DNA of 20,497 bases from a virus, in IMG/VR virus record IMGVR_UViG_3300025655_000376, positions 1 to 20,497 of that record. One strand, written 5' to 3'. The translations under genes were made by a program, and so were the position numbers. Under the pieces are notes generated by a model. That model made no database searches. It worked only from the letters and a program-made list of their open reading frames with translations, and had not been told where the DNA came from. Positions within the stretch are counted from its first letter, which is position 1, and every line of letters starts with the position of its first letter. Shown here piece by piece: positions 1,187 through 18,478 of this stretch.

Positions 1187-3400
1187 CTATGCTGCTATGT
1201 CGTCCCAGCTCGGAGACTGGGATGGGTTTACGGGCGCATATCCCGGGGATTGTGACGGAGCCACCGCTGCATAGCCAGAAACCTGACTTGGTGTGATCGT
1301 CGCATATCCGGCAGATTGCGAAGGTTCTATTGAACTATAACTTGGATTTTGATTTGGAACAATCTCGCCCCACACAAAGACAGCATCTACTTCACCGATT
1401 GCGGTGACGCCCGAGACGCTGACACTAGCGCCAGCCTCTACAATTACACTTCCAGCATATGCTGTCGCTGACACTCCGGTGACGTAAACGGAGACGAAAA
1501 TCCCAATACGAACGGAGCCAACCTGCCCAGAGGCTTGAAGACCGGACGGGGAGACTATTGCCTGTGCAGCTACGGATACAGAGCCGTTGTAGGCATTAGC
1601 CTGTAGTCCGCTAACAGATGTGGTCGCATCATTAGAAACGACAACGCTTCCGGAGTATCCAGTCGCAGACACCCCAGATGTCGTAACATTTGCGTCAGCA
1701 GAGACAGAAGCAGAGCCGACACTGGCAGAGCCAGAAACACCAGAGACATTGGTTACATCGTATACCGTTACGGTTACAGAGCCGACACCGCCTGTTGCGG
1801 ATAGCCCAGTGGTGGGGACATTTTCGTCAGTAGAGACAGAAGCAGAGCCGACACTGGCAGAGCCAGAAACACCAGAGACATTGGTTACAGCGTATGCCGT
1901 TACGGTTACAGAACCGACACTGCTAGTGGCTTGCAGGCCAGTGGTAGGGGCATTCGCCGCAGCAACAACTGTTACAGAGCCAACATTGCCTGTGGCGGAA
2001 AGACCATCAGGGTAGACATTCGCTTCTGCAACAACTGTTACAGAGCCAACACCGCCTGTTGCGGCAAGACCATCAGGGTAGACATTTGCTTTGGCAACTA
2101 CGGTAACAGAACCAACCGATCCTGTCGCCTCTAGGCCGGAAACCGGCGCATTTGCATCGACCTCAACTGTGACTGCGCCGACCGCAGCGGATCCTGCGAT
2201 ACCTGTTGGATAAACAATCGCAGCACCGGTGACGGCAACTGAACCGACACCGCCTGTGGCGGCAAGACCATCAGGGTAGACATTTGCTTTGGCAACGACC
2301 GTTACCGCGCCAACACTGCTAGTAGCTTGCAGTCCAGTGGTGGGGACATTCGCTTCTGCAACAACGGAAACTGAACCGACAGCGCCACTGGCTTGCAGGC
2401 CTGTGACAAATACAACATCCTCTGCAATGGCAGTAACTGTACCGACCTGCCCAGCAGCAGATACGCCTGTGGTGGATACATTTGCTGCGGCAATGACAGA
2501 TGCGGAGCCTGCGGACCCCGTAGCCAAGACACCGGTTACAGGAGTGACCGCCTTGGCAACAACCGTAACGGAACCTGCAGCGCCAGTAGCAGCAACGCCT
2601 GTGACAGATGCAACAGCCTCTGCGATGACAGTAACTGTACCAACCTGCGCTGCAGCCTCTACGCCGTCAGGGTAGACGTTGGCACGCGCAACAATGTTTA
2701 CAGAGCCAACGCCGCCAGATGCCTGAAGCCCAGTTGTGGGGACATTCGCTTCTGCAACAACGGAAACCGAACCGACACCGCCTGTGGCGGCAAGACCATC
2801 AGGGTAGACATTTGCGTCAGCAGAGACAGAAGCAGAGCCGACACCGCCTGTGGCGGATAGCCCAGTGGTGGGGACATTTGCTTCTGCAACAACGGAAACA
2901 GAGTCAACATCGCCCGTTGCGGCAAGACCATCAGGGTAGGCATTCGCTTTGGCAACGACCGTTACCGCGCCGACACCGCCTGTGGCGGATAGCCCAGTGG
3001 TGGGGACATTTGCTTCTGCAACAACGGAAACAGAGTCAACATCGCCCGTTGCGGATAGCCCAGTGGTGGGGACATTTGCTTTGGCAACGGCCGTTACCGC
3101 GCCGACACCGCCTGTGGCGGAAAGACCATCAGGGTAGACATTTGCTTTGGCAACGACCGTTACCGCGCCAACACCGCCTGTGGCGGATAGCCCAGTGGTG
3201 GGGACATTTTCTTCGGCAACGACCGTTACCGCGCCGACACCGCCTGTTGCGGATAGCCCAGTGGTGGGGACATTTTCTTTGGCAATAACGGAAACAGAGC
3301 CAACATTGCCTGTGGCTTTAGGGAGGTCCGTCTGACCCCAAGGCATCTCGCCCCAACCAAAGCGGGACCATCCGCCGGTTGGGACGATGATATCAGCCAT
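1187..3400 (-). CDS. 737-aa repeat protein: 29 tandem 22-residue repeats, probable virion protein
   Basis: After a 41-residue Trp/Gly-rich head (GGWSRFGWGEMPWGQ), the protein is 29 consecutive 22-residue repeats (residues 42-679). The consensus is ANVPTTGL-SATGGVGSVTVVAE, with alternating small and beta-branched residues typical of a beta-strand repeat fold. It ends with five 11-residue repeats of the type PSQSPGYAPVN (residues 682-736). I see no catalytic motif, signal peptide or membrane segment. The ATG overlaps the upstream stop as TAATG, implying translational coupling, and the tail fibre gene follows 10 nt downstream. From memory, related GWG-headed and PSQ-ended proteins with fewer repeats occur in aquatic phages, where they are called structural or hypothetical. 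I infer an elongated tail or fibre component; the function is not known. Confidence 0.8.
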   Translation of the reverse strand: MADIIVPTGGWSRFGWGEMPWGQTDLPKATGNVGSVSVIAKENVPTTGLSATGGVGAVTVVAEENVPTTGLSATGGVGAVTVVAKANVYPDGLSATGGVGAVTAVAKANVPTTGLSATGDVDSVSVVAEANVPTTGLSATGGVGAVTVVAKANAYPDGLAATGDVDSVSVVAEANVPTTGLSATGGVGSASVSADANVYPDGLAATGGVGSVSVVAEANVPTTGLQASGGVGSVNIVARANVYPDGVEAAAQVGTVTVIAEAVASVTGVAATGAAGSVTVVAKAVTPVTGVLATGSAGSASVIAAANVSTTGVSAAGQVGTVTAIAEDVVFVTGLQASGAVGSVSVVAEANVPTTGLQATSSVGAVTVVAKANVYPDGLAATGGVGSVAVTGAAIVYPTGIAGSAAVGAVTVEVDANAPVSGLEATGSVGSVTVVAKANVYPDGLAATGGVGSVTVVAEANVYPDGLSATGNVGSVTVVAAANAPTTGLQATSSVGSVTVTAYAVTNVSGVSGSASVGSASVSTDENVPTTGLSATGGVGSVTVTVYDVTNVSGVSGSASVGSASVSADANVTTSGVSATGYSGSVVVSNDATTSVSGLQANAYNGSVSVAAQAIVSPSGLQASGQVGSVRIGIFVSVYVTGVSATAYAGSVIVEAGASVSVSGVTAIGEVDAVFVWGEIVPNQNPSYSSIEPSQSAGYATITPSQVSGYAAVAPSQSPGYAPVNPSQSPSWDDIAA
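1193..1357 (-). repeat. 33-bp repeats, 5 units, at the 3' end of the repeat gene
   Basis: Five consecutive 11-residue units encode PNQNPSYSSIE, PSQSAGYATIT, PSQVSGYAAVA, PSQSPGYAPVN and PSQSPSWDDIA. Pro, Ser/Asn, Gln and an aromatic residue are conserved in each unit. This is a second repeat class fused directly after the 22-residue repeats. Confidence 0.9.
1364..3277 (-). repeat. 66-bp tandem repeat array, 29 units, in frame
   Basis: The array is 1914 bp, exactly 29 units of 66 bp, all in the reading frame of the 737-aa gene. Units at the 5' side of the gene (about 2700..3277) are nearly identical at DNA level, while units near 1364..1700 have diverged. Two variant starts alternate irregularly: NVPTTG and NVYPDG. 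Confidence 0.93.
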
Positions 3401-3846
3401 TAGGCAATCCGAATGACCGCGTTGCTCGCGTCAGCAGTTGGGAACACGATGGTAAAATCACCTGCCGTCGCAGTCTTGTCTCCACCAAAATCCAACACAA
3501 TAACGGCATTTGTCGTGCCAGTGCTGGCACCAGCTGTCGTGTTGTAGATCAGCGCACCACGCGCCGTAATGGTGGCAGTCGAGAACGTCAGGTCCGCGAA
3601 GTCAGTGAAAGCAGTCGTGCCTGATGTCGTCGGCGTGATGTTCGTCAAGGTTCCGCCGCCTGCTGTATAGCCAGTGCCACTAACCTCATTTGAGGTTGTA
3701 TAGTCAGTGGTTGCAGCAGTGAACGATGCGCTGTTGGTGTACATCGCAAGCTTGAATGTGTCACCAGTACTTGCCGTGAAGTTGTGCTGGGCCTGCAAGA
3801 GTTCTTGCTTGAAGGACGTGCACATAAAGTTGCCAGTGAAAGCCAT
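3400..3846 (-). CDS. Conserved phage structural protein (148 aa)
   Basis: The protein is Thr/Ala/Gly-rich with an ordered N-terminus (FMCTSFKQELLQAQHNF), then GDTFKLAMYTNSASF and NEVSGTGYTAGG, and predicted beta structure throughout. From memory this matches a small family found next to tail genes in aquatic phages with no assigned biochemical role. A strong Shine-Dalgarno AAGGAGA lies 7 nt before the ATG, inside the end of the upstream gene. Its stop overlaps the next start by one base (TAATG), so it is probably translated in a fixed ratio with the 737-aa repeat protein. I infer a virion or tail component. Confidence 0.75.
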   Translation of the reverse strand: MAFTGNFMCTSFKQELLQAQHNFTASTGDTFKLAMYTNSASFTAATTDYTTSNEVSGTGYTAGGGTLTNITPTTSGTTAFTDFADLTFSTATITARGALIYNTTAGASTGTTNAVIVLDFGGDKTATAGDFTIVFPTADASNAVIRIA

Positions 3847-10873: not shown

Positions 10874-11840
10874 AGGTGCGTTCCTTCATGAGTTGCGCGG
10901 CGTATTGCTCGCGAGTCAGTCCGAGCCGCTTTCTGATATCGTCTGCGGACTTGGTCAGCTGCACAGTTTGGCGCGGTTTTTTCGAGCCTCGGCTCGCAGG
11001 AGCTACCACGTTACCTGACGGACGAGCGGACGGTACGCTAACCTCTACCGTGTCGTCGCCAAAATTGTCCGCGAAACGCTTCCGCATCGCGGCGTCGATC
11101 TGAGTATAGTACGTTGGCGAGTTCGGCGCAACGCCGCTCTTCACGAGGCGCTCGTGAACGCCCAGAGCAAATCCGGTCATCTCCTCATCGCGGCCGAACC
11201 ACGTGTTCTTGGCCGCCCACGCCTGCGCCTCCGGAGGAGGAGTCGCGACGGCAGGGGCCTGCGGTTGAGGTCGCTGTTGCGGCGGCTGCCGATACTGCTG
11301 CTGCTGCTGCTGCTGCTGCGGAGCCGGGCGATACGACTCCAGCCGGATCCGCTCATGCTGCAACTGGGAGATCTGTTCTTGGGCTTCGAGCACCTTGTCG
11401 GTGTCCCCAGCTTCGTACGCTTCGCGGTACGCTCGGCGCGCACGGTCGAGCTCGGCTTGGAGGCGGCCTTTAGATTCCCGCACGAGGACGCCCTCGCCCT
11501 CGGACAGAATCCGCTGCAGGCGCTGGTTCTCCTGATTCACCGACTCGGCGTACCGGATAGCCTCTTCGCGAGCACGTGCGGCTTCTTCTTTGGCCCGCCG
11601 CTCCTCGTGGTACTCGTAGCGAAGCTGCTTGATGCGCTTCTGCACGGATTCCCCGTACTGCGCGATTTCGTCGTCGTCCGGGATCTGCGGATCGGTGCCC
11701 TCGGCGCGGCGGGGCTTGCCCTTATCCTTCTCGGGCGTATCGTCCACGATCTCGACGTCGAAGTCGCTATCGTCAGCCAGAACGGCGTTGTTCATGTCGT
11801 CCACGGCGGTGTCTTCGCCCGTGTTGATGTCGTCAGTCAT
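10866..11840 (-). CDS. Capsid scaffolding protein, putative (324 aa)
   Basis: Architecture fits a scaffold: an acidic, disordered N-terminus (residues 1-60, rich in Asp/Glu), a long charged coiled coil (about 65-170, with KEEAARAREEAIRYAES and LQAELDRARRAYREA), a Gln/Pro linker with eight consecutive Gln (about 175-200), and a conserved C-terminal part (WAAKNTWFGRDEEMTGFAL, YYTQIDAAMRKRFAD) ending in a basic helix-turn-helix-like tail, which in other scaffolds contacts coat protein. It sits between the co-chaperonin and the capsid genes. Its ATG overlaps the co-chaperonin stop (ATGA). Scaffold is an inference from composition and position; the C-terminal block is familiar from aquatic phages. 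Confidence 0.72.
   Translation of the reverse strand: MTDDINTGEDTAVDDMNNAVLADDSDFDVEIVDDTPEKDKGKPRRAEGTDPQIPDDDEIAQYGESVQKRIKQLRYEYHEERRAKEEAARAREEAIRYAESVNQENQRLQRILSEGEGVLVRESKGRLQAELDRARRAYREAYEAGDTDKVLEAQEQISQLQHERIRLESYRPAPQQQQQQQQYRQPPQQRPQPQAPAVATPPPEAQAWAAKNTWFGRDEEMTGFALGVHERLVKSGVAPNSPTYYTQIDAAMRKRFADNFGDDTVEVSVPSARPSGNVVAPASRGSKKPRQTVQLTKSADDIRKRLGLTREQYAAQLMKERTYG
11295..11318 (-). repeat. Trinucleotide run encoding eight glutamines
   Basis: Eight uninterrupted CAG codons (CTG on the plus strand) fall in the linker of the scaffold-like protein. Use of a single codon throughout suggests recent expansion by replication slippage. Confidence 0.9.
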
Positions 11841-12220
11841 GCGCGTGTGTACCCCCGTGGGTCAGAAACCACCGCTTCTACGGTGTCGTCGTTGATGATG
11901 CGAAACTCTTTCCCGTGCACCTTGAACCGAGTGCCGGAGTAGGAACGGAAGATGACGAAATCGCCTTCCTTGCACCATGCTCCATCGGGGAATCGGGTGG
12001 GGTCTGCGTAAGCCGCAGTACCAACTTTCAAGACGAACCCGATGATGGACGCCGTCTCTTCGGCCGACCGAAGGCCGTCCGGCATGAACACGCCGCCGTC
12101 GGTCTTCTCCTTGATCTCCGGGATCGCAATGAGCAGGCGGTACCCTGTCGGTTTGGGTAGTTTGGCCTGCAGGGCAGCATCGCCCAACGTAGGGTCATCA
12201 GTGTTTGGTGTAGCGTACAT
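11837..12220 (-). CDS. GroES-type co-chaperonin (127 aa)
   Basis: This is a Cpn10 family member that would cap the host GroEL ring during folding, most likely of the capsid protein. Visible features: PTGYRLLIAIPEIKEKT at the start of the barrel, the mobile-loop region TDGGVFMPDGLRSAEETAS with a GGV tripeptide, then GFVLKVGTAAY, GDFVIFRSYSGTRFKV and a terminal INDDTVEAVV strand matching the Cpn10 C-terminus. Length is slightly above bacterial GroES, as in phage versions such as T4 gp31. No GroEL is encoded here, so host GroEL is the probable partner. Its stop overlaps the scaffold start, linking dose to head assembly. The gene has an 81-bp leader with a dyad. Confidence 0.93.
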   Translation of the reverse strand: MYATPNTDDPTLGDAALQAKLPKPTGYRLLIAIPEIKEKTDGGVFMPDGLRSAEETASIIGFVLKVGTAAYADPTRFPDGAWCKEGDFVIFRSYSGTRFKVHGKEFRIINDDTVEAVVSDPRGYTRA

Positions 12221-14991: not shown

Positions 14992-16149
14992 TTACCGTCC
15001 GCCCTCACCGACGTTGGAGGGGTCGTACCCAAGGCGCGGATCGTATCCCGGGCTGCGCTTGTTTTTGTTAGCGGGAGCGGGAGCGGGAGCGGGAGCGGGA
15101 GCGGGAGCGGGAGCAAGCGCAGGCGCGGGGGCTGGGACCCCGTAGTTTATCTCGCTCGACATGCCGCCAAACACGGGAGGAGGATTTACCGGGGGACTAG
15201 GCTGAACCGGGCCGCCAAACACGGGAGTGGGCGCAGGCGGTTGATACGGGGCCTGCACGGGAGGGGTATACGCCGGGAACGGAGATGCGGGAACAAACCC
15301 GCTACGCCCGTACGTAGGCGACGGAGCCAGCCCCGCATTCATTACTTGGGTATACATTGACTGGTATGGCGACCGCCCGCCTCCGCCGTAGGGCGACTGC
15401 CCGCCGTAGGGCGACTGCCCGCCCCCTTTACCGCCACCGCCGTAGGGCGACTGCCTGCCGTAGGGCGACTGCCCGCCGTAGGGCGACTGCCCGCCGTAGG
15501 GCGACTGCCTGCCGTAGGGCGACTGGTAGGGCGACTGGTAGGGCGACTGGTAGGGCGACTGGTAGGGCGAAGAAGGACGGGGAGCGCCAGTGGGAGACGC
15601 GCCCCCGCCCTTCCCTCCGGCGTAGGGAGATCCGCCGAAAAGAGGAGGAGAGGGACGGGAAGCGCCCCCGCCCTTACCGGACATAGCAGGTTGTGTACGC
15701 ATCATGTTGGCGTTGGGGTCTTGGGCCATGCGCTGCTGGGACGCCTGCAGCGACTCAGCCATCCCCGGCAACTGCATCAGCTGCTGGTCGAACGCGCCAC
15801 GACTTCCGCCACCTTTTCCTAGGCCTTGGACTGGCTGGGCGCGCAATTGGTCGCCTTGCATACCAGCAGGAATTTGGCTTGGGGCCTGCGAAGGCTGAAC
15901 CATAACCCCAAAACCGAGCTGGTGTATGTTGGGGTCGTAGCCTGCGGGCAATGCAGGTTGTGTACGCATCATGTTGGCGGTGGGGGAAGCGCCCCCGCCT
16001 TTACCGGCCAGCTCATTCTGATACTGTGCCGCCCCTGCGCCTTGCCGCGCCGCGTCTCTGGTGGCCGCAGCCTGCGCCTGCTCCTGCGCTCGATGTATCA
16101 GGTTCTGGTTGGGAGTAAGCGCCGCAGGCATTCTGTTGGGGGAGATCAT
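14992..16149 (-). CDS. Low-complexity Ser/Pro/Tyr/Gly-rich protein (about 385 aa)
   Basis: After a short ordered-looking N-terminus (PNQNLIHRAQEQAQAAATRD), the protein is almost entirely low complexity. It has five GKGGG motifs, two NMMRTQPA segments, about a dozen consecutive SPYG or SPYQ units, a Pro-rich region (PVQAPYQPPAPTPVFGG), an Ala-Pro run and a Lys-containing tail (NKNKRSPGYDPRLGYDP). No fold or enzyme motif is seen. The open frame begins at 16356 inside the terminase gene; real starts are ATG at 16149, ATG at 16131, or GTG at 16197, the last giving an N-terminus TPAQYRASIREAS. None has a strong ribosome-binding site. It is intercalated between terminase and portal genes. Function is unknown; intrinsic disorder is the only safe prediction. 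Confidence 0.7.
   Translation of the reverse strand: MISPNRMPAALTPNQNLIHRAQEQAQAAATRDAARQGAGAAQYQNELAGKGGGASPTANMMRTQPALPAGYDPNIHQLGFGVMVQPSQAPSQIPAGMQGDQLRAQPVQGLGKGGGSRGAFDQQLMQLPGMAESLQASQQRMAQDPNANMMRTQPAMSGKGGGASRPSPPLFGGSPYAGGKGGGASPTGAPRPSSPYQSPYQSPYQSPYQSPYGRQSPYGGQSPYGGQSPYGRQSPYGGGGKGGGQSPYGGQSPYGGGGRSPYQSMYTQVMNAGLAPSPTYGRSGFVPASPFPAYTPPVQAPYQPPAPTPVFGGPVQPSPPVNPPPVFGGMSSEINYGVPAPAPALAPAPAPAPAPAPAPANKNKRSPGYDPRLGYDPSNVGEGGR
15071..15114 (-). repeat. 6-bp tandem repeat encoding an Ala-Pro run
   Basis: Seven perfect copies of GCGGGA (plus strand), in frame, encode alternating Ala and Pro in the low-complexity protein. Perfect identity suggests slippage-driven growth. Confidence 0.92.
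15361..15570 (-). repeat. SPY-unit repeats of 12, 18 and longer bp
   Basis: Tandem and interrupted copies of a unit encoding SPYQ (12 bp, four adjacent copies at 15523..15570) and SPYGGQ or SPYGRQ (18 bp) alternate with GGGGKGGG spacers. The DNA units are nearly identical (plus-strand core GTAGGGCGACTG). Confidence 0.9.
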
Positions 16150-16240: not shown

Positions 16241-17836
16241 TCAATAGTACTCCACCGGGCCCCGATACGGAGGCGTGTCGTCCACGAGGTCGGTCGGCAG
16301 CCGCACGAACCCGCCTTGGCGGAACCGCATGAGCGCCATGGAAGTGCTGTCGACAAGGTCGTCGTGGTCCCCGTAGGGAAATTCCGCGACCTCTTCGACC
16401 AGCTCGTCCGCCCACCGCTTGTTAGGCACCCACACGAGCCCGGACAGCACGATGTCCGCCACGGAGTTCAGGCGCGCCAACTTGTCTCCGGTACCCCGGT
16501 GGGGGGTATACTCTTGCACCGGCAGGCCCATCCGGCGCATCTCCTGATACAGGGCCGTACCGGCGGACTTCTTCTCGACGATGAAGGCATCCGGCTGCCA
16601 CTCTTCGTATTCGGCGTAGGCCCGCCGCTTCAGCTCCGGGAACTCCATGCGCTCGCGGATCGCGTTCAGCAGGATGATGTTCTGCGCCCCGGTCTGCTCG
16701 TTCAGGAACACGCCCCACGTGGTAAGCGCCGTGAAGTCTGCGCGGTTATGGATCTCGGCCGCAGCGTCCAACGACATGATCATGTACTCTATCGGCGGCG
16801 GGTCGGTGGCTTCCCACCGCATCCACGCATTGCGCGTGATAACCGCAGCCTCATCAGACGTGGGGTTCTGCTGATACTGGGCGTTCCACTGGTACGTAGG
16901 CATGGACGCCTTGGTGCGCAGGAGTGCCGGTACATCGAACTGGTCCGGCCACAGGGCCGTCTGCACCAACTCCCCTTCGTCATTCTCCCGCTCGAAGAGC
17001 GCCGGGAACTCGACTACCTCGTACTGGTCGGCGTCCTCGATCTGGATCATGTCCTGCACGAGCCGCCCCGTCAGGTCCTTCTTGCTCCAGCGGGTCTGTA
17101 CGACCGCCACGCGCCCTCCGGGCATGAGACGGGTCCGGGCACCGAACGTGAACCACTCGTAGGCCTTGTCGAACACGTCCCTGCTACCACTGACGACGTC
17201 CTGTTCCGAGTGGGGGTCGTCCACCAGCAACAAGTCCGCACCGCGCCCGGCCAGCGCCGACCCGACGCCCGTGGCGTAGTACCCGCCCCCCTTGTTCGTA
17301 TCCCACCGCCCGGCAGACTTGGAGTCCGTAGCGAGAGCAACCCCCGGGAACACCTCCCGGTACGCCTCAGTCGCGATCAGGTTCCGGACCTTGCGACCAA
17401 AATCGACGGCGAGGTCGGCGGTGTGGGACACCATCATGACCTTCTTGTCCGGGTTGCGTCCGAGGAACCACGCGGGGAACAGCAGCGAGACCAGCTGGGA
17501 CTTGCCGTGGCGCGGCGGGATGTTGACGCATATCCGGTCGTTGCGCCCCGCCTCGATGGCCATGAGCTTGTCCGCAAGCACCCGGTGGTGAGACCCGACT
17601 CGATAGTCAGGCTGCATGTGCTTGCAGAACGCGATCAGGTCGTCCCGCAGGGCCGCACGGCGCTCACGTGCCTCCAGCTCCGACACAAGCGCTTCGATCT
17701 CGACAAGCTCGGCCGCGCTGAACGCATCCAGATTGTCCAGCACGCGCTGGATCACATCCGCGTCAGCGACGTCAGCGACGTCAGCGACGTCAGCGACGTC
17801 AGCGACGTCAGCGGGCTGGTCGGCCAAATCAGGCAT
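16241..17836 (-). CDS. Terminase large subunit, TerL (531 aa)
   Basis: This is the ATP-driven DNA packaging motor with C-terminal nuclease. The ATPase domain has Walker A at about residues 106-113 (IPPRHGKS), Walker B at 200-208 (ADLLLVDDP) and a likely coupling motif in VVQTRWSKKDL. The RNase H-like nuclease has the first Asp in MSLDAAAE (about 357), IVEKKSAGTALYQEM (about 419) and the final acidic cluster YGDHDDLVDS (about 488-497). All key residues are present. The frame is open to 17932, but GAGGAGA 4 nt before the ATG at 17836 fixes the start. Residues about 9-28 are an unusual repeated Ala-Asp-Val tract. It docks on the portal encoded two genes away. The divergent sulfotransferase-like gene starts 73 bp upstream. 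Confidence 0.97.
   Translation of the reverse strand: MPDLADQPADVADVADVADVADVADADVIQRVLDNLDAFSAAELVEIEALVSELEARERRAALRDDLIAFCKHMQPDYRVGSHHRVLADKLMAIEAGRNDRICVNIPPRHGKSQLVSLLFPAWFLGRNPDKKVMMVSHTADLAVDFGRKVRNLIATEAYREVFPGVALATDSKSAGRWDTNKGGGYYATGVGSALAGRGADLLLVDDPHSEQDVVSGSRDVFDKAYEWFTFGARTRLMPGGRVAVVQTRWSKKDLTGRLVQDMIQIEDADQYEVVEFPALFERENDEGELVQTALWPDQFDVPALLRTKASMPTYQWNAQYQQNPTSDEAAVITRNAWMRWEATDPPPIEYMIMSLDAAAEIHNRADFTALTTWGVFLNEQTGAQNIILLNAIRERMEFPELKRRAYAEYEEWQPDAFIVEKKSAGTALYQEMRRMGLPVQEYTPHRGTGDKLARLNSVADIVLSGLVWVPNKRWADELVEEVAEFPYGDHDDLVDSTSMALMRFRQGGFVRLPTDLVDDTPPYRGPVEYY
17762..17813 (-). repeat. 9-bp tandem repeat in the terminase N-terminus
   Basis: Five perfect copies plus a partial copy of GTCAGCGAC (plus strand) encode the repeated Ala-Asp-Val tract near the TerL N-terminus, ahead of the ATPase domain. 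The perfect copies suggest recent slippage; changes in number would stay in frame. Confidence 0.93.
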
Positions 17837-17908: not shown

Positions 17909-18478
17909 ATGCTCATATGCCAGACCAACCACTATGTCGTCGAGATCCCCAAGGCAGGGTCTTCTACCCTACAGGTTGTACTGGACCGTACGGTCAACGG
18001 CACCACCCTGAACGGCCACCACTCGGTGTCCGAGGCCATACGGCGCAACAAAGGGCAGGAGTTCTCGGGTATCACGGCGGTCGTGCGGCGACCTGAAGAT
18101 CGGCTTGTAAGTGCTTGTAATCACTTGCTTTCTAACCTTAACTTGCATCCCGAGGACCGGCCCGGCGCGCTTCGGGCCGCCGCCGACCTGATAGCTGGTG
18201 CCCTCGACGGGTACGACCGGAAAACACATCTGGTGCACTACTTCTGCTTCAAGCCGCAACATGCGTTCCTCGACACGGATCACACGGTTACGTTGTATCG
18301 GTTCGAGGCTCTGGAGCGCGCTGCCCGGGCTCTCGGATACGTCGGGGACCTACCCCACGCCAACAAGAGCATCCGGTGGGTATCGCACGAAGACGTGGCT
18401 GCACTGGACGGCTACGCCCCCCTCATACAGCGTTATGCACAGGATGCTGCGCTATGGAGAGAGGCACTGGGGCCTTAG
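17909..18478 (+). CDS. Sulfotransferase-like protein (189 aa)
   Basis: Near the N-terminus, YVVEIPKAGSSTLQVVL matches the PAPS 5'-phosphosulfate loop (PKxGSxT). Further on, ITAVVRRPEDRLVSACNHLL matches the 3'-phosphate-binding segment (RxPxxRLxSA) of the Sulfotransferase_2-type fold. The late segment TVTLYRFEALERAARALGY is also typical of this fold. It would transfer sulfate from PAPS to a hydroxyl on a carbohydrate or other acceptor; the acceptor is unknown. At 189 aa it is short for the family. It lies on the opposite strand between the two terminase genes, and its stop overlaps the convergent gene's stop. The start is uncertain: ATG 17909 is the first in frame, with GGAGGGGG about 18 nt upstream, further than usual. 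Position and strand suggest an acquired accessory gene (moron). Confidence 0.78.
   Translation: MLICQTNHYVVEIPKAGSSTLQVVLDRTVNGTTLNGHHSVSEAIRRNKGQEFSGITAVVRRPEDRLVSACNHLLSNLNLHPEDRPGALRAAADLIAGALDGYDRKTHLVHYFCFKPQHAFLDTDHTVTLYRFEALERAARALGYVGDLPHANKSIRWVSHEDVAALDGYAPLIQRYAQDAALWREALGP

Follow-up and report, generated by a model that had tools for sequence, protein, structure and literature searches.

The window, that is, the whole stretch of DNA that was analyzed, is a linear IMG/VR record of 20.5 kb. On its minus strand, a weak small-terminase match is followed by TerL (PHROG 38), an SU10-type portal, Cpn10, and the major head protein and then by two SU10-type adaptors, a PHROG 644 gene, a repeat protein gene, and a tail-fiber gene. 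The repeat gene is an open reading frame (ORF) that runs from an ATG start at position 3400 to position 1187 and encodes 737 aa, while the product of the fiber gene matches PHROG 31104 at its N terminus and tail-fiber PHROGs along its body. The features at this end of the window are as follows.

3400 to 3846, minus strand: PHROG 644 protein gene, directly upstream of the repeat gene and a member of the conserved trio
1187 to 3400, minus strand: repeat protein gene, the whole ORF with its stop codon (737 aa)
3317 to 3400, minus strand: N-terminal cap, residues 1 to 28, with the W11-x4-W16-x4-W21 triad (GGWSRFGWGEMPWGQ), invariant among the closest relatives
1403 to 3316, minus strand: 29 tandem 22-residue units of 66 bp each without indels, residues 29 to 666
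1337 to 1402, minus strand: partial 30th unit, passing into VFVWGEIVPNQNPSY; W677 opens the aromatic ladder
1193 to 1357, minus strand: five 11-residue repeats, residues 682 to 736; the protein terminates in IAA
1 to 1176, minus strand: tail-fiber gene, directly downstream of the repeat gene and truncated by the contig end

The initial annotation had described 29 gap-free 22-residue units plus five 11-residue repeats, and both counts were confirmed (residues 29 to 666 and 682 to 736); our analysis adds the strand, the precise position at which the C-terminal region begins, and the partial 30th unit, which consists of the first 10 residues of a unit (667 to 676) ahead of that region. The lag-22 autocorrelation of the protein was 0.487, compared with 0.119 ± 0.012 (maximum, 0.154) in 1,000 shuffles, and TRF reported periods of 66, 132, and 198 bp in the array. 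The window protein has the 22-residue unit of the family, with Gly at positions 6 and 20 (consensus ATGAVGSVTVTADANVSVTGVE), and the per-position profile of the unit has Val or Ala at alternating positions (8, 10, 12, 14, 16, and 18). This profile points to a long strand plus a turn, rather than to any particular fold.

Several other features were observed in the window. The Cpn10/GroES-like co-chaperonin (PF00166, E = 1.9e-11; positions 11837 to 12220, minus strand) lies among the structural genes. The ORF from 16356 to 14992 contains (PA)n and QSPYGG/YQSP tandem arrays, a 9-bp array near the N terminus of TerL encodes VAD repeats, and the same phage has a poly-Q tract; these additional tandem repeats lie at 15070 to 15114, 15383 to 15570, 17761 to 17813, and 11273 to 11319. 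A sulfotransferase-like ORF with a VEIPKAGSST motif (17909 to 18478, plus strand), located between the small and large terminase genes, had no Pfam match at an E value of 0.01.

The AF2 model of the window protein, which was built from a 25-row alignment, was all beta with both ends disordered and had a mean pLDDT of 72.8. Since the array scored mostly between 55 and 90 and had a regular strand pattern, this model could be read as a rigid monomeric beta-solenoid rod, along the lines of the solenoid-like element raised in the initial annotation. However, the diverged units of the 8-unit relative L002 gave a pLDDT of 50.0 with an alignment of similar size (27 rows), AF2 builds confident yet unrealistic beta-solenoids from repeat sequences (PMC11795689), and monomer modeling would miss an intertwined trimer. 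Fold searches of the PDB and BFVD returned no convincing match (none in the PDB at E ≤ 0.001), and sequence searches of the PDB returned no related solved structure. Given the drop in pLDDT and the tendency of AF2 to overpredict solenoids, the modeled solenoid fold is not established, and we regard the rod as rather unlikely.

The curlin repeats of CsgA (Pfam) are also ~22 residues long and strand-turn-strand in character. Nevertheless, a curli-like amyloid was rejected: no Pfam curlin match was found at E ≤ 0.1, the consensus differs, and the window gene sits in a phage structural operon. A Pfam match to LT-IIB was judged to be due to chance (18.3 bits, below the cutoff of 25). The PHROG scan of the repeat protein gave no match, and the Pfam and PHROG scans together assigned it to no known nozzle or fiber family, SU10-type nozzles included. 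The triple beta-spiral of the adenovirus fiber shaft is also a repeat-built viral fiber shaft (PMC3386624), but it has no sequence match to the window protein.

Relatives of the repeat protein are numerous, with at least 580 in IMG/VR: a direct search recovered 72, and wider scans confirmed at least 581 and at least 543. A second profile scan of genomes for relatives found none, and a third found two metagenome-assembled genome (MAG) contigs. Among 200 distinct complete relatives, the proteins had 3 to 33 units, and the distribution peaked at 8 and at 11. The window protein has 30 units by the same counting method and lies in the upper tail of this range; it does not hold the family record, since wider sampling identified a relative with 33 units (L250). 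Across five groups of closely related members, dN/dS ranged from 0.12 to 0.18, which indicates that the sequence is under selection and is maintained as a protein. The annotated family members that we saw were all labeled hypothetical proteins, and a literature search on repeat-number variation in tail fibers found no paper on this family.

The neighborhood is conserved as well. A PHROG 644 gene lies upstream of the repeat gene in 184 of 198 testable distinct relatives, a gene with the fiber N-terminal domain lies downstream in 169 of 188, and the window has both. The order is identical in a Rhodobacteraceae MAG contig, where it ends in a 985-aa fiber carrying a Peptidase_S74 chaperone domain, a mark of trimeric fibers. 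In the cultured pelagiphages HTVC023P and HTVC027P, the repeat gene (gp68) directly precedes gp69, a "putative tail protein," and in DSL-LC04 it likewise precedes a tail gene. Both gp68 proteins share with the window protein 22-residue VTG-type units and a downstream tail protein with the same N-terminal domain, although their units are far more diverged. HTVC023P gp68 also ends in IAA and has three Trp residues 11 apart at its C terminus; in contrast to the window protein, it has ~7 units, its cap is of the LLGITAISQSPIASLG type and lacks the Trp triad, and ~9 kb separate the repeat gene from the PHROG 644 gene. HTVC027P gp68 has W-x4-W-x4-W triads and directly follows its PHROG 644 homologue. 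The DSL-LC04 protein (WJZ48131.1; OR003939) has the same repeat, an upstream PHROG 644 gene, and a C-terminal Trp ladder, and its downstream neighbor is annotated with an intramolecular chaperone domain, but it has 12 units and four Trp triads rather than one. The gene product is thus a real, conserved, and uncharacterized tail-region repeat protein, and the window member lies toward the upper extreme of its length range.

The initial annotation had proposed a fiber-like virion element, which is plausible given this conserved place next to the tail-fiber gene. Long repeat fibers of other viruses can be attached to the head, and the repeat gene does lie within the structural cluster, so the protein might instead be a head fiber or decoration (whisker) rather than a tail part. 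We consider this quite improbable, however, because the gene is at the tail-fiber end of the cluster, where it comes later than the SU10-type adaptor genes and has the fiber gene as its immediate downstream neighbor. A tape-measure role was rejected, since the neighboring genes are of the short-tailed SU10 kind.

All five Trp residues of the 737-residue protein fall in two ladders. The N-terminal one is W11-W16-W21 (W-x4-W-x4-W), and the C-terminal one consists of six aromatic residues at an exact 11-residue spacing (W677, Y688, Y699, Y710, Y721, and W732), as is typical of the family: 71 of the 79 proteins examined have at least three aromatics at this spacing up to the C terminus, whereas at each of the control spacings of 9, 10, 12, and 13, no more than 1 of the 79 does. 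The N-terminal triad occurs once in 50 of these proteins, twice in 20, and four times in 1. The array of the L047-to-L068 group and of DSL-LC04 (L074) has a 36-residue insert that bears a second W-x4-W-x4-W triad.

In the SU10 nozzle, the trimeric short tail fiber is held by Trp839, Trp847, and Trp857 of the dock loop, which are arranged as a quasi-threefold star (PMC9509320). SU10 is the same kind of phage, and the adaptor and portal families of the window match those of SU10. In both phages, a peptide adjacent to a trimeric fiber carries Trp residues at intervals; however, nozzle gp17 has three Trp residues only, spaced 8 and 10 rather than 11 apart, on a beta-propeller nozzle, and it has no sequence homology to the window protein. 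Since the adjoining gene encodes a fiber of the trimeric kind docked in SU10, the C-terminal aromatic ladder may, by analogy, dock the fiber of the downstream gene. A more elaborate version of this idea is that the proteins are modular fiber-adaptor arms in which each triad and each ladder aromatic set would dock one trimeric fiber, with the array serving as an arm tuned by recombination. Ladder length varies among 2, 3, 4, and 6 aromatics (only two in L069 to L071), so a strict rule of one ladder per trimer fails, and we view this version as doubtful. If true, the arm would set both reach and the number of fibers held, an undescribed way to adjust phage reach.

A related locus offers a natural comparison for the function of the repeat protein. 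In Roseobacter phage CRP-902 (L156, 3559 to 7048), the PHROG 644 homologue adjoins the fiber domain gene with no repeat protein between them. Since this fiber has the same N-terminal domain, attachment of such fibers does not depend on the repeat protein in every phage.

Unit number changes in whole 66-bp steps. L115 and L126 align over 1,588 bp with no mismatches and a single 66-bp gap, i.e., one unit; because the units of L115 do not differ from one another, assembly could have altered its count. L029 and L039 align over 1,639 bp with 2 mismatches and a single 132-bp gap, and L248 and L250 have 30 and 33 units between flanks that are 99.7 and 96.7% identical. Overall, unit number differed in 27 of 128 close pairs (both flanks >90% identical), a few of which were affected by frameshifted or open ORFs (e.g., L025/L028) or by a domain insert. 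In L028 (4323 to 5015), the flanks are identical to those of L025, the repeat ORF is broken, and just 116 residues are open. Together with the family range of 3 to 33 units, these pairs strongly support the suggestion in the initial annotation that array length evolves by unit gain and loss; the counts of relatives were not uniform, so the possibility that all share one number falls away.

L004/L142 is 99.56% identical to the window over 12.4 kb, and L007 is 99.1% identical to it over 4.1 kb. Compared with the window, both carry one additional 66-bp unit, inserted at the same position, after which the unit order diverges. Since the L004 and L007 contigs stop within the array, misassembly could account for their last units; the extra unit common to both is less easily explained in this way. 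These breaks, and assembly from metagenome reads, also raise the possibility that the long window array is an artifact of a shorter one. Against this, the units differ from one another, the frame is intact across 29 units, other contigs contain 22 to 33 units, and the longest exact repeat inside the array is 86 bp, so ordinary short reads can in principle resolve it. We therefore consider an artifact highly improbable. More generally, assembly of metagenomes breaks such arrays in the tail region or may give them a wrong unit count.

Comparison of individual units with those of relatives identified three blocks.

2063 to 2326, minus strand: units 16 to 19, matching units 2 to 5 of L006 (77 to 85% DNA identity)
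1865 to 1996, minus strand: units 21 and 22, orthologous to units 1 and 2 of the 8-unit L002/L003 (80 to 82% DNA identity)
1337 to 1732, minus strand: units 25 to 30, one-to-one orthologous to units 3 to 8 of L002/L003 (62 to 89% DNA identity)

Window units 1 and 16 to 19 are 77 to 92% identical to L006 units 1 to 5 at the DNA level, whereas DNA farther out from the array is just 61% identical between the two. Identity to L006 is likewise raised in the PHROG 644 gene and the N-terminal cap, which indicates that the exchanged segment includes both. Mean pairwise DNA identity was 0.74 among units 1 to 10 and 0.53 among units 11 to 29. Units 22-23/24-25 (85 to 89%) and 11/14 (80%) are duplicated beyond the N terminus, and units 3 and 16 are 92% identical despite a separation of 13 units. 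The simplest reading of these sequence relationships is that the arrays of two relatives were fused by recombination and that local duplications arose near the N terminus, in units 22 to 25, and in units 11/14. The earlier observation that N-terminal units are alike and C-terminal units diverged was therefore broadly right, albeit with recent duplications elsewhere too. Its corollary of expansion from one side is only partly borne out: the extra units do lie mostly to the N-terminal side of an ancestral block at the C terminus, but the arrays of two relatives are combined here as a mosaic, and duplications are scattered over several places.

In L044, a LamG lectin-like domain of ~200 residues (PF13385, E = 6.9e-18) lies inside the array, which suits a surface-exposed role. 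Inserts of ~200 residues occupy similar gene positions in L044, L129, L254, L260, L273, and L300, with LamG confirmed in L044. One could therefore propose that the repeat protein is a receptor-binding adhesin whose array, sometimes with LamG, displays binding surfaces, such that variation would change host contact rather than arm length. The inserts (~204 residues) at similar places and the unit mosaicism, which resembles exchange of binding modules, agree with this proposal. Nonetheless, selection on the highly uniform units is strongly purifying rather than diversifying (dN/dS, 0.12 to 0.18), most members have no extra domain, and a separate fiber gene follows directly, so we judge an adhesin to be unlikely.

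We instead favor, at roughly even chances, an elongated, beta-strand-rich tail structural protein that works with the trimeric fiber of the adjoining gene. The N-terminal Trp triad would provide one attachment point, the 22-residue array would act as a spacer whose unit number sets its length, and the C-terminal aromatics every 11 residues would dock the fiber. Unit number and order would be altered in whole 66-bp steps by recombination, both among the tandem copies and from one related phage to another. Of these proposals, we are most confident in a virion role, less so in the spacer function, and least in docking.

Aquatic phages, including cultured pelagiphages, carry a repeat family whose annotated members, as far as seen here, are labeled hypothetical proteins. 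The nearly identical natural variants (L115/L126 and L029/L039), together with the cultured phages, make the idea of a length dial testable. If the protein is indeed an arm or dock of the tail fiber, unit number would serve the phage as an inexpensive and reversible dial of length in its contact with the host.
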